DNA from: Loxodes magnus
Taxonomy: Eukaryota > Ciliophora > Karyorelictea > Loxodida > Loxodidae
NCBI GenBank assembly: GCA_946699065.1
Contig: CAMPDV010000147.1
Coordinates: 310,001 to 374,000, forward strand
Direction: 5' to 3'
Length of the DNA: 64,000 nt
The notes beneath the pieces are model-generated. The model was not told the DNA's origin. It ran no database searches and worked only from the letters and a program-made list of their open reading frames with translations. Below are positions 33,919 through 54,847 of this stretch, piece by piece (positions within the stretch are counted from its first letter, which is position 1; every line of letters begins with the position of its first letter). Both the position numbers and the translations under genes were made by a program.

Positions 33919-33930
33919 TTAAACATAAAG

Positions 33931-34780
33931 GAAAAAAAAAAAAAAAAAAAAAAAAAAAATGGAATAATCTATTCGCCTTTCCAAAAACCAAATTAAGAAC
34001 GCAAAAAGGAAAGCTGCGAAACAAATGTAGAGACAACAACAAGAAGAAGATAAATCAAGTTCCTCCTCTGAAGGAAAAATCATAATCGGAACAATAGAAT
34101 CGAATCCAGTAAAGGTATAAAAATAATCCGAAATATAAATATAGCTTGACCAAATGAAAACAATAATACAAAATTATTAGGAAACAATTTACAACCAAGG
34201 GGAAAAAATAAGAGAACTAATGAATACTATCGAAGATTAAAATAACGAGCTTCTAATAATTAGACGATAATTGATTTAGAATAATCTAGTCACGGAATAG
34301 TAACTATATGAATAATCTCAATCGAATTTTAAGCAAGAACAAAATATGATTATCGAAAATGTTTCTACATAAGCAAACGTTTAAGAAAAATAGAATGACT
34401 AAAAGATTAATATAGATTTAATCAAAAGAATCGATTAACTTGAAAAAAAAGTATTTCTGAAGAGATTCAAGAAAAAACAAGGCAAACAATGCTATTATTG
34501 CAAATCAAAGTGACACTTATTACAAAATTGCGATTAGTGAAGATAAATTTAGATAAAAGAACAATAAAGAACGTTAAGCATACTCAGCAGACTCTGAATA
34601 ACCTAAACAGGGATTTACAAGAGAAAACTATTCACATAAAAGACAGAAGATCCTCTGTGGTTCCACCCACATAAAAAAATGGCGTGGTATCCATCCACGC
34701 TAAAAAAATGGTAGCAAAAACCTGGTTGAAAATCCAGGGAATGCTAAACTTTAATTACTTTTAGTTTACTATTATTATTA
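33931..34780 (+). mobile_element. Gag-only retroelement, family E2 copy a, with target-site duplication
   Basis: Flanked by an exact 12-base duplication TTAAACATAAAG (33919-33930 and 34781-34792). It starts with a homopolymer of about 28 A just before the ATG and ends in two hairpins (GGCGTGG..CCACGCT near 34681-34701; CTGGTTGAAAATCCAG near 34721) and a (TTA)n tail. One ORF fills the element and there is no RT. It is the best-preserved E2 copy together with 53.98 kb. Confidence 0.9.
33959..34770 (+). CDS. Family E2 gag-like protein with CCHC knuckle
   Basis: From ATG 33959 (MEQSIRLSKNQIRNAKRK): a basic start; a Ser-rich SSSSEGKIIIG stretch; a long coiled-coil-prone Glu/Gln/Asn region; then the knuckle C-YY-C-KSK-W-H-LLQN-C at 34490-34531 with Trp = TGA (34511-34513). 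It is followed by DQ-W-RQI, L-W-IT and TGIYKRKLF, with TGA at both Trp. The same Trp positions recur as TGA in the 54 kb copy. The frame is open to the tail under TAA/TAG = Gln, TGA = Trp, so its true stop is unclear. It is probably a nucleic-acid-binding ORF1/gag-type protein acting in an RNP. Confidence 0.7.
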
Positions 34781-34792
34781 TTAAACATAAAG

Positions 34793-35781
34793 CTATTTTA
34801 TTATTTAATATACTTGCCTCTTAATCAATAACCTAAGCAATCTGAATATTTTTTTAATTTTTGTTAATCTCTTTATTACTTTCTAAGAATTTCAAAAGCT
34901 TATAAAATAAAAAATTTATTTATTAATTGACTAGAAAATTTTAAGTATATTCAAAATAAACTTACATTAAGAGTAAGTTTATTAGAATAAGTTAAAGATT
35001 TAATCAAACTTATCAAAAAATAATGAAATTAATTATACAAAATTTATTTATTTAAATTAAATTTAGTTATCATTAATTTAAATTTATTCGTAAAATATAA
35101 ACTATTTATTTTTTATATCAAATATGAGCATTTTCATTTATTATTAAAGATATAAATTATATTTATATATGAAATGTAATATTGCTACTCTCAATTTTAG
35201 CTTATTCTTTCGTAAATTCATATATGCTTTTTCTGTCAAATAAGCTAACATTTTTTAACATGTACTTTTAGTTGCTAAATATGAAAATATTTACTTATGA
35301 AAATAGAATGGATAGAGAATAGCATGCTCGAGGCAATTTGGTAAATCATAATTTTATACTTTTATGGCTTTTGAATAATAATAAATTTCATCTGTCATCC
35401 AATTTTAATACTCCAAAACTGTAAAGGAAATAATTGAAAATTGAGCAACTGTGGAAATTAGAAATAATTAAATACAGCTAAATGAAGATATTAGTGTATT
35501 AGTTTTTTAAATTTAATTTAAATAGATTTTTAATAATTATTTATTAATATTTCATTAGAGATTGCTATGTTTATCAGTGCAATGCTATATTAATAAATTA
35601 CACCGCTTTAATTTTAAAGGAAATATAATCTTAGTAATTTTTTTTAATTCTGCTATTTAAAAAATTTTGTATCTTGGATATATTTTTGCATGCATAACAA
35701 GATAATCCCAGCAATCCAAAAGAAACACTGATATATTTACCTTAGTATATTTATATTAAAATAAAATCTGATATTAAAAAA
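34793..35781. other. AT-rich duplicated DNA
   Basis: 34.80-35.45 kb is a diverged third copy of sequence at 24.4-24.9 and 55.15-55.69 kb. 35.46-35.78 kb resembles 10.2-10.66 kb, and the match is broken by the E1 insertion at 35.78 kb. No gene seen. Confidence 0.5.
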
Positions 35782-36720
35782 AATGGAAGGCTTCAAAAAG
35801 GGTTTCTATATCCCCTCCTCCAAGAAGGAGAGGAAACCAGAATCAAATTTCGGACAGCCTTCTTATGCTAAGCTTTACTTTTTCTTAATAATCTTAGCAA
35901 CCTGGAATATAATAGAACTATGAAGAAACTAAACAGACTCAGAAAAGCACTCACACGCTTACTCCAATGTAGGAGGAAAAGTCTTCTTTGCATTAGGAGG
36001 TCTCAGAGTTCAACTCTTCCGGGCAGATGAGCATAGAACAGCTCATTAAAGTTGAATTAAACCTCCAGGAAGAGGTCAAAAAGCTAAGGAAGGACAATGA
36101 GAAGCTAATGTAACAAATTAACCTAGCAGAAGAAATAGAATCAAGACTCATGTCCTAGAAAAGAGAGCTAAGCGTCTTTTGAAACATATCACAAAGTTAG
36201 AATAGCTAATCCTAAAATTAGTTTCAGAAAAAGATTGAATTGGATAACAGACTGTAAAAATAGAAGAGAAATTTTAAACTTTTAAGAAAGAGTAAAGCGA
36301 AACTGGAGCTATACAAATGGAAATTGAAGTCTAAAAAGAGCAAACTCAACAAGAAAAATAATTAAAAATCAAAAAGAAATTATTCTGTTGTGGAAGCGTA
36401 TGAAATCTTTATCGGAAGTGTTGGAAATTTTAATAAAAGTAAAGAGACTATTGGATAAAAGAGCAACAAAAGAAGAAAAAAGAAGAAACCAAAATGAAAA
36501 GAATGTATTGTACCTGGATGGTTCAATATAAAGTTCAAAATGGAACCCAATCAAGTAAAAGGAAGGAAAATCTGGAGAAACTCGAATTCTCAATCTCACT
36601 AAAATTGAACGACCCTAACTTTTATATTTAAAAGCAGGAATCATGAACTGTTGTCCTCCTGACGGGTTTGAAAATCCCTAAAACGGAAAAAATCAAATTA
36701 ATAATATTATTATTATAAAT
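35782..36720 (+). mobile_element. Gag-only retroelement, family E1 copy b
   Basis: Intact family start MEGFKKGFYIPSSKKERKPE at ATG 35783. The coiled coil is near 36030-36100. The in-frame TGA at 36180-36182 lies in VF-W-NISQSQN, but in a frame different from the ATG, so at least one frameshift exists. The knuckle near 36378-36422 is damaged (first Cys and the His replaced), again with TGA before the His position. The C-terminal LNDPNF motif and hairpin GGGTTTGAAAATCCC precede the (TTA)n tail. No target-site duplication found. Confidence 0.75.
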
Positions 36721-52970: not shown

Positions 52971-53320
52971 TTTTTGTATAAATTTTTAACTTATAAATTT
53001 TATTTTCTTTAATTTTTTGAAGCTAAAGTGTGTTTTTAAATTTAGAGAAGTTGGAAATGATCGATAAAATTGCTTAGTCAAATAATTTAAAATTAAATTT
53101 TATTTTATCTTTTTTAATTATTTTATTTTTTATTAAAAGAAATAGAATATTTCGCTTTTAGATCAAAATGAATGAATATATTTTATTTTATGATTTTAAT
53201 ATTTATATAACTTAAATGTCTTAAATAAATAAAATATTATAGCATAACATAACATAATTTTTTAAAGTAACTTCACCTTTATTTGGTTAATCACAAAATT
53301 AGAGTTTGTATAAGTTTTTT
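52971..53320. other. AT-rich spacer
   Basis: Nothing supported; it resembles the flank at 33.33-33.6 kb (shared GATCGATAAAATT-like and TTTTATTTTATCTTTTTTA segments), suggesting another old duplication. Confidence 0.4.
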
Positions 53321-53981
53321 CTTATCAGAAATCTTCTTCTTCGTAGTAAACTTGTATTATTTCTCTCTTTTCCTTGTTTCCACTGAGATTTGCTTTCATA
53401 AGCTTTCCTGCATAAAATCCGTATTGTCTTTTGTTCCATTCTCTTGCTTTAATTAGTATTCAAGATATTGCTTGAATGATTTATTGTTCTTTTCTTCTAT
53501 ATAATTTTGCTTCTTTTTTGCAGTATATTATAGATATTTTTTTAATTTCTTTCGTTCTACTGTTTTTCTTTTTTTCTAAAAATTCCAACAGTTTCTTACC
53601 TTGTGACCTTGCTTCTTGCAGTACCAGCACCTTTATTAGCGGTCTTCTTTATGTATAAATTAATGCTTAATTTATTTCTTCTCTGTCTGTCTCTACATCC
53701 ATAGGATCGTAATTTATCTTATTTTGCATTTTCTCTTTTTTTTCATAATTTATTCTTTGTAATTTTTATTCAATCTGGTGGATTAATGAGTATATTTGCC
53801 GATCAGAAGGTCTACTTACGATATCTTATTTTAATCTATTGTTTTTCTATTTCAGTTAATCAATTTGAAAAAATTAGAACACAGACTTTGTTTAAAAGTT
53901 CTTAGACTTCCTGCTAGAGTTTAAGATTTTCGTTTTGTAGATGTTAAAGATCAATTTATATTTCTTATTATAATTTATTAG

Positions 53982-54832
53982 AATTAATAAAATGGATTAA
54001 TCTCTTCGACTCTCAAAAAATTAACTTAGAAACCTAAAGAGAAAAGCGGCAAAAGAAATTTAGAAAAAATAATAACAATAGGAGGAGTCAAGCTCTTCTT
54101 CAGAAGGTAAAGTTATGGTAGGATAAATAGAGATAAGTTAACCTAAAAACGAAACTAATCAAAAACTTTAAATTTAATTAGACCAAATGTAAAAAGTAAT
54201 CTCAAATTATGAAGAAACAACTTACAACTTAGGCGAAAAAATACGGGAACTAATGAGTAATATAGAAGATTAGAACAACGAATTACTAATACTTAGAAGA
54301 TAACTTATTTGTAGCAAATTAATAACGGAAGAATAACTCTGAACTTAATCATAATAAAATTTTAAATACGACACAAAAATGGAAATAGAAAAAATACCAA
54401 TAGAATTAAAAACAGAATTGAATCCAGAAAAAGAAATGATTGCTACAAGTTTCATTAAAAGATTAGAAAATATAGAAAATAAATTATCATAAAAAAGAAC
54501 GAAATAAAGACAATAATACAAACTTTGTTGATGTTGCAAATCAAATCAACATATTTTAAAAAACTGTTGATAGTGAAAGAAAATAAACGAATAAGAGCAG
54601 AAAAGAACATGGAGACAACTCAATAAACTATGAATAACTCCAACAGGGATCTACAAATAAAAGCTTTTTGCAAGACCACTTGAACGGTTACAGTGGTAAC
54701 CTTCCACTTAATAAAAAGGTCGTGGATCACACCCACGTTAAAAAAGCTGTCCGCAGGAACTGGTTGCAATTCCAGAGAATGCAAAACTCTACTAACTTTA
54801 AGTATATTATTATTATTATTATTATTATTATT
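53982..54832 (+). mobile_element. Gag-only retroelement, family E2 copy b, with 15-bp target-site duplication
   Basis: Flanked by ATTATAATTTATTAG at 53967-53981 and 54833-54847, inserted inside the minus-strand gag-like ORF. It is 851 bases, practically the same length as copy a (850). Two 3' hairpins (CGTGG..CCACG near 54723; CTGGTTGCAATTCCAG near 54759) precede a long (TTA)n tail at 54805-54838. Confidence 0.93.
53992..54780 (+). CDS. Family E2 gag-like protein with CCHC knuckle
   Basis: From ATG 53992 (MDQSLRLSKNQLRNLKRKAA), aligned along its length with the 33.96 kb ORF. The knuckle at 54526-54567 is C-WC-C-KSNQ-H-ILKN-C; its Trp is TGA (54529-54531) at a position that is aromatic in other copies. 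KRT-W-RQLNKL follows with Trp = TGG at 54610-54612 (TGA at 38.5 kb) and Gln = CAA (TAA at 38.5 kb). Then L-W-ITPTGIYKQKLF has TGA as Trp. The frame is open into the hairpins; the stop is unclear. Confidence 0.72.
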
Positions 54833-54847
54833 ATTATAATTTATTAG

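Follow-up and report, generated by a model that had tools for sequence, protein, structure and literature searches.

What kind of element is repeated along nucleotides 33919–54847 of the 64,000-nucleotide (nt) stretch of the Loxodes magnus genome analysed here, and how does it move without a reverse transcriptase (RT) of its own? The stretch, referred to as the window, comprises positions 310001–374000 of contig 147 (CAMPDV010000147.1) in a 706-Mb, most likely macronuclear assembly (GCA_946699065.1; 705,730,643 bases, 7,843 contigs). It contains short elements whose only product is a gag-like protein with a Cys-Cys-His-Cys (CCHC) zinc knuckle. Our analysis indicates that these families are probably non-autonomous retroelements of the type without long terminal repeats (non-LTR), which encode one gag/ORF1p-like protein (coiled coil plus zinc knuckle) and are mobilized by long interspersed nuclear elements (LINEs). 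Searches were assembly-wide, with scoring of the best 40 matches per DNA query and the best 150 per protein query. Family labels (E, F, G, H, Kn, and LmL) are our own, and L-numbers such as L024 and L051 denote individual assembly loci retrieved for reading.

The ends of two elements, E2 (37891–38722, + strand) and F2 (53992–54840, +), were determined in an unbiased manner by picking loci solely through a match to the 3′ end (123 bp for E2 and 213 bp for F2), the body being ignored. The best 40 of 916 candidates for the E2 end included three at 100% identity and 37 at 99%, and the best 40 of 243 candidates for the F2 end, among them the window copy, all matched its full 213 bp at 100%. Ten of the 40 E2 loci and eight of the 40 F2 loci were retrieved to check the body. 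An 822-bp body without indels and with 1–10 substitutions relative to the window copy was present in 10/10 E2 loci, nine of which kept the ATG, and seven F2 loci carried the full 821 bp at 99.76–100% identity. In the eighth, L051, the match starts only at position 320, a possible 5′ truncation. These 17 whole units of approximately 0.82 kb leave no room for an RT, in agreement with the original prediction that the elements are RT-free, and a longer RT-encoding element bounded by both of these ends did not turn up among the 18 loci, which were drawn from the best 40 matches per family. The E2 copies carry subfamily changes, two of which are common to six of the ten retrieved, indicating that new copies have come from more than one source. 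An E2 insertion with identical flanks was seen at three places (window 37880–38730, C147:392478–393430, and C7766:43922–44874), which reflects either segmental duplication or duplicate contigs.

Direct repeats flank these units. In a set of 18 E2 and F2 sites, from which L038 and L039 (whose flanks are those of the window E2 copy) and L051 were dropped and to which the window copies and F2b were added, 17 had flank repeats of 14–20 nt. When flanks were crossed between sites as a control (n = 306 pairs), 14 pairs reached 14 nt and 16 reached 12 nt, partly because some flanks contain TTA repeats. A mixed sample of ten elements gave direct repeats of 12–17 nt in seven, compared with 0 of 90 crossed pairs. 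The repeat is separated from the ATG by 4–11 A-rich nt in 9/9 E2 sites and by 4–10 nt in 4/9 F2 sites. In the window, the target-site duplications of E2 and F2 are ATTATCTTATTTTTA and TTATTATAATTTATTAG, respectively; both frames are open with TGA read as Trp, and many copies of E2 at 99% identity lie elsewhere. E2 and F2 are complete mobile elements with fixed ends, present as very young copies, and they have the features of non-LTR (target-primed) insertion, namely, target-site duplications of variable length and a simple-repeat tail at a fixed 3′ end.

A common protein architecture of coiled coil, CCHC knuckle, and post-knuckle motif had been proposed for the families, and this was borne out by tblastn and by a profile. 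Searches between families gave E values from the cut-off of 1e-4 down to 4e-15. A profile of the knuckle and tail, built from seven families and run on 303 kb, produced 20 raw matches and none in base-shuffled sequence. The 19 matches at E < 0.05 (weakest, 0.024) comprised seven stretches that are the seeds and ten further stretches, with one stretch counted twice and one element counted as two pieces. The aligned core reads C-x2-C-x3/4-H-x4-C, followed approximately 20–35 residues on by [LIF]-[YW]-x3/4-G-x0/1-I-Y-[KR]. Judged by this similarity, the open reading frames (ORFs), read with reassigned stops, hold together as one superfamily of encoded proteins with at least seven families; no Pfam family scored above the cut-off against the gags tested. 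AlphaFold modeled the E2 gag with helices at residues 88–167 and 195–213 and strands at 215–217 and 223–225, by which the post-knuckle motif is predicted to form a beta-hairpin. The predicted local distance difference test (pLDDT) score was 73–89 at residues 91–160 and 70–83 at residues 181–220.

Reading these frames depends on the genetic code. Loxodes is reported to use NCBI table 27, in which UGA is Trp or, close to the mRNA 3′ end, a stop (PMC11441545). The element frames are open with UAA/UAG as Gln and UGA as Trp and under no other reading. RT frames of the same genome (RVT_1 matches) contain 3–9 TGAs per 224–299 residues, which is what table 27 predicts. Aligned by eye, in-frame TGAs of the elements fall on TGG codons of relatives, for example, C-TGA-CC...NC-TGA of F2 on CWYC...NCW of F-rel, a gag-only relative. 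Decay of the F family was considered as an explanation for the in-frame TGAs and rejected, as these lie at Trp positions and the frame downstream is still under selection, constraint on the F frame persisting 3′ of them.

That constraint was measured between F2 and F1 (33959–34782, +), a second F element of the window whose ORF runs from 33959 to a UGA at approximately 34735 in the loop of the 3′ hairpin, followed by a (TAT)n tail; its target-site duplication, ATTAAACATAAAG, lies at 33918–33930 and 34780–34792. Across 232 aligned codons (a single codon gap, no frameshift), the nonsynonymous rate (dN) was 0.35 and the synonymous rate (dS) 1.64, a ratio of 0.21. In the two other frames, the proportion of synonymous differences (0.38 and 0.40) was close to the nonsynonymous proportion (0.35). 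The purifying selection that the original prediction proposed to look for is thus found between F1 and F2, which demonstrates upkeep of the gag for the F lineage rather than for all families.

The 3′ ends were compared between families. E, F, and H elements close with a short UUG-loop stem, and approximately 25–45 nt further on come ATT-type repeats in E1, E2, and F and an irregular tail in H; the E1b and E1c tails have only about three (ATT) units. A 3′ hairpin with a microsatellite tail had been described as common to all families; the hairpin proved to be a trait of E, F, and H, the (ATT)n tail is shared by E1, E2, and F, and Kn1 and F-rel have other 3′ ends. Kn1 ends in AAGGCTTTAACAAAGC plus TTTAAC repeats, unlike E, F, and H. 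An alignment of seven hairpins (F1, F2, two further F copies, E1c, E2, and H; E1a, E1b, E1d, and E1e were left out) had 28 of 28 cells paired, and in two of the four pairs both partners differ between F and E/H. The pairing was lost when the partner strand was slid, and the covariation is modest because it is close to one split between two groups. Of 13 TTA-type runs of at least four units in the sequence examined, seven are, by reading, E or F 3′ ends, and one is the end of an LmL2 LINE.

Candidate partners are abundant. The RVT_1 search of the assembly gave 3,403 candidates, and the best 150 were all above the cut-off; by this domain match, LINE candidates in the genome number in the thousands. 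The L024 LINE, of the LmL1 type, contains an ORF1 with one CCHC by eye and no Pfam match, an APE domain (PF14529; E value, 2.9e-11), and an RT domain (PF00078; E value, 4.7e-36). Its 3′ end, GCTGCGCACC...GGTGCTACGCGC plus (TTTA)n, recurred in seven of eight further RVT_1 loci, the other (L035) being something else. The LmL1 5′ end lies at or just ahead of ATGG, as judged from the sequence upstream of L024 against L011 and L019: the 600 nt upstream of the L024 LINE match those loci for only approximately 27 nt (TATATTAAAAA before ATGG), apart from short chance-level matches. The LINE copies in L011 (start 9140, −) and L019 (start 6945, +), both on contig C1, share their upstream flank (94% over 315 nt or more) and are thus duplicates of one insertion. 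A search for target-site duplications around the L011 and L024 LINEs found none, with matches of 8 nt only. A diverged F copy lies within the LmL1-type LINE at L011:5716–6436, where approximately 250 bp of the LINE are absent. Several RT matches recur every 2532 bp on C5131 and C20, so part of a LINE is apparently in tandem arrays or misassembled. An RT motif pattern search of the window and a sampled contig, a test of low sensitivity, gave one unrelated match.

Two links connect these LINEs with the gag-only families. At the 5′ end, the first ~60 nt of LmL1 align with E1, E2, and H (ten sequences, including three LINE copies, two of which are the duplicates); E1c against the LmL1 5′ end gave a blastn E value of 1.3e-6. 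The A-rich leader ahead of ATGG is alike in LmL1 and E/H, and the shared stretch encodes the peptide GFKKGFYTTS in E1, E2, H, and LmL1. In a 30-nt gap-free core, five E/H copies differ at codon positions 1, 2, and 3 by 11, 14, and 42 changes, the LINE copies by 2, 8, and 4, and E/H from the LINEs by 29, 43, and 70. The third-position excess among E/H suggests that the shared 5′ stretch is translated there. This 5′ end may have passed from an LmL1-type LINE to E and H or in the opposite direction. At the 3′ end, F-rel, Kn2, and an L025-type LINE carry CCAAATAAAGG, which occurs four times in 655 kb on both strands, three of the occurrences being these; on this shared core, the L025-type LINE is plausibly the partner of F-rel and Kn2. 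Kn1 (L024:250–947) and Kn2 (L026:300–1040) each start no more than approximately 100 nt away from the 3′ tail of a LINE on the same strand.

The 5′ link also favors the explanation that the elements are deletion derivatives of RT-encoding LINEs with the same gag, in the way that HAL1 arose from L1, the parent being rare, extinct, or diverged. A diverged parent could escape, as only the best 40 (DNA) or 150 (protein) matches were scored, and the sequence ahead of F2 position 320 in L051 leaves it some room. We nevertheless consider this explanation unlikely. Beyond approximately 20 N-terminal residues, the E/H gag is, by eye, unlike ORF1 in the three LmL1-type LINEs examined (L024, L076, and L077); their ORF1 regions contain a CCHC or Cys-rich stretch, and the G-x-I-Y tail was not seen in them by eye. 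The loci picked by the 3′ end were nearly all whole, and the LINE 3′ ends read are unlike those of E, F, and H. The E2-type gag (best 150 of 8,323) and RVT_1 (best 150 of 3,403) matches have 12 contigs in common, on which the nearest pair among the matches listed lies approximately 15 kb apart by eye. An origin of the units by retrocopying of a host gene for a knuckle protein, as processed pseudogenes spread by the LINE machinery, is highly improbable: E2 units resemble an mRNA-derived cDNA in their AUG start, 4–11-nt leader, and single ORF, but their 3′ terminus is a paired hairpin with a trinucleotide tail rather than poly(A), at least seven diverged families have the same protein format, and the E2 subfamily changes imply multiple source copies.

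A second LINE type was considered as the source of the E/F machinery. LmL2 (best 150 of 9,671 candidates scored) had been suggested as the E/F partner by a (TTA)n tail in L017, and it was rejected: 19 of 20 retrieved flanks end in a different stem plus TTAA-type repeats, without the E/F hairpin, and the twentieth (L069) reads by eye as a Kn1 copy.

For LINE-mobilized gag-only retroelements, the following course of events is proposed. The unit, as seen in E2 and F2, has a fixed start, either the AUG itself or a point a few nt ahead of it, and ends in the UUG-loop hairpin and (ATT)n. Its mRNA would be translated, and the gag would oligomerize via the coiled coil and coat its own RNA via the knuckle and the C-terminal helix and beta-hairpin. 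A resident LINE that recognizes the 3′ hairpin and tail would then supply the endonuclease/RT for reverse transcription of the resulting ribonucleoprotein at a nicked target. As the families differ in their 3′ ends, they probably serve different LINEs. A bolder version, which we put forward tentatively as somewhat less likely than its negation, is that of a self-coating class whose sole heritable gene is a gag distinct from ORF1 of any resident LINE, whose 3′ recognition ends have repeatedly been exchanged for those of different LINE RTs, and whose activity is now at least that of the host LINEs.

Several observations weigh against this account of LINE-mobilized elements with a functional gag. 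A LINE with the E/F/H hairpin was not found among the LINE 3′ ends read; those of the LmL1 type have different hairpins, followed by (TTTA)n or a T-rich tail, and LmL2 ends are of the TTAA type. We therefore infer, rather than observe, mobilization in trans. In 4/9 F2 sites, the flank repeat lies 20–43 nt from the ATG, and site L052 has a flank match of 7 nt and no clear repeat. F2 and Kn1 lack a clear UGA stop ahead of the microsatellite tail, so translation may continue into the tail. The overall quality of the E2 model is poor (mean pLDDT, 58), and its predicted hairpin has one strand, the second, inside the 221–230 block, also at 58. On limited data, dN/dS was 0.54 for an F-rel pair (78 codons) and 0.58 for a Kn1 pair (195 codons, 14 differences). 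Among young E2 copies, 15 of 19 variable positions alter, by eye, the protein or the start codon; this is expected of recent copies without selection, and selection is thus seen solely between F lineages.

The other elements within 33919–54847 complete the picture. Together with F1, E2, and F2, they are approximately 0.75–0.97 kb apiece, and the E1 copies of the window are frameshifted and decayed. E1a (35783–36718, +), decayed by frameshifts, has a LINE-like 5′ end, the 3′ hairpin, and an (ATT)n tail, with a flank match of 8 nt and no clear target-site duplication. E1b (41738–42656, −), also decayed, has a 12-nt target-site duplication, ATTATACTAGTT, and a relative in locus L012 (92% over 432 nt). 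The decayed E1c (42859–43815, +) has a LINE-like 5′ end and a flank match of 10 nt only. The gag-only relative G lies on the − strand at approximately 40640–41480 (ends not delimited), with the knuckle and tail at 40783–40953 (GDIYRRK), and a decayed E/G-type gag remnant was detected at 48268–48615 (+; tblastn E value, 1.3e-8). F-rel (53240–53980, −; CWYCKKQGHKVRNCW, GFYAGK) has F2 on its 5′ side, and its 3′ core is the one common to Kn2 and the L025-type LINE. What had been described as a split ORF at 53.3–54.9 kb is actually these two elements, F2 (+) and F-rel (−), head to head.

The span proposed for the superfamily holds for these elements, and further copies lie outside it: E1d, a decayed E1-type element (4248–5215, +), and three Kn1 copies on the − strand with approximate 3′ ends, at 5520–6391 (MASKKQ..., GKIYRKN), 23525–24383, and 55740–56606. 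Genes for tRNA-Met(CAT) lie on the + strand at 26425–26498 and 56742–56815, the last Kn1 copy beginning approximately 135 bp from the second. The window also contains an Argonaute-like gene (1–1590, −; PAZ and partial Piwi) that the start of the window truncates, as well as an ORF resembling PP2C phosphatases (16181–17404, −). Matches to the LmL1 3′ end were located at 3498, 8166, 21672, 33256, 38923, 39818, 50609, 52590, 61577, and 62100, mostly within repeats resembling short interspersed nuclear elements (SINEs), one of which has a (TTTA) tail of approximately 96 units (50241–50625). A separate repeat at 37520–37820 (GGTGGGAGCTGAGAATGACC...), approximately 80% alike in L002 and present in L028, is likely a second SINE-like family.

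As far as our searches go, such a superfamily in a ciliate, with a single gag lineage spanning at least seven families, 3′ ends of several kinds, and near-identical recent copies, is new. The titles and abstract openings listed on Loxodes retrotransposons and on gag-only or ORF1-only non-LTR elements describe no such superfamily, and the main text of the Loxodes genome paper reports LINEs and does not contain the terms "gag," "SINE," "zinc," or "non-autonomous" (PMC11441545). Part of the unclassified interspersed repeats given there for the macronuclear assembly (757 k copies, 366 Mbp) may be accounted for by gag-only elements. A LINE parasite with its own RNA-binding-type protein raises the question of the role of ORF1p/gag in cis when the RT is foreign, and the near-identical 0.8-kb copies of E2 and F2, with their sharp ends, would serve as small experimental models.

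The claim that ORF1-only families are unusual must be tempered, as HeT-A and HAL1 are gag/ORF1-only non-LTR precedents. In the trypanosomatids, L1Tc and its short partners are described, in the source consulted, as sharing tens of nt at the 5′ end (Pr77), like LmL1 and E/H; in contrast, Rfam detected no ribozyme, including HDV (hepatitis delta virus)-like ones, or other family in L024 or window 33500–54900. LINE-dependent SINEs are likewise short and presumably trans-mobilized, and F-rel and Kn2 share a LINE 3′ core as such elements do. However, the Loxodes elements encode a conserved protein, and, given the purifying selection between F1 and F2, the SINE trait of having no protein of their own does not apply. 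Nor did the units have an Rfam match for a small-RNA head of the RNA polymerase III type, although a divergent head could escape; the tRNA-Met genes of the window lie elsewhere. HAL1 (half-L1) of mammals is, as summarized in the source consulted, a non-autonomous non-LTR element that encodes ORF1p only and derived from L1 with several origins. The Loxodes elements resemble it in having ORF1/gag and no RT, as in 17 of the 18 E2/F2 loci; they differ in that their gag is, by eye, not ORF1 of the LINEs read, except for the N-terminal residues in E/H, and in that their E/F 3′ ends consist of a hairpin followed by a microsatellite. Whereas HAL1 shares its 3′ end with the parent LINE, a possible counterpart here is the F-rel/Kn2 core, and none was found for E, F, or H. 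HeT-A of Drosophila, likewise according to the portion of the literature seen, is a non-LTR element that encodes a Gag-like protein alone, as ours do, and transposes to chromosome ends in tandem arrays, whereas the Loxodes elements that were tested lie at internal sites, flanked by target-site duplications.

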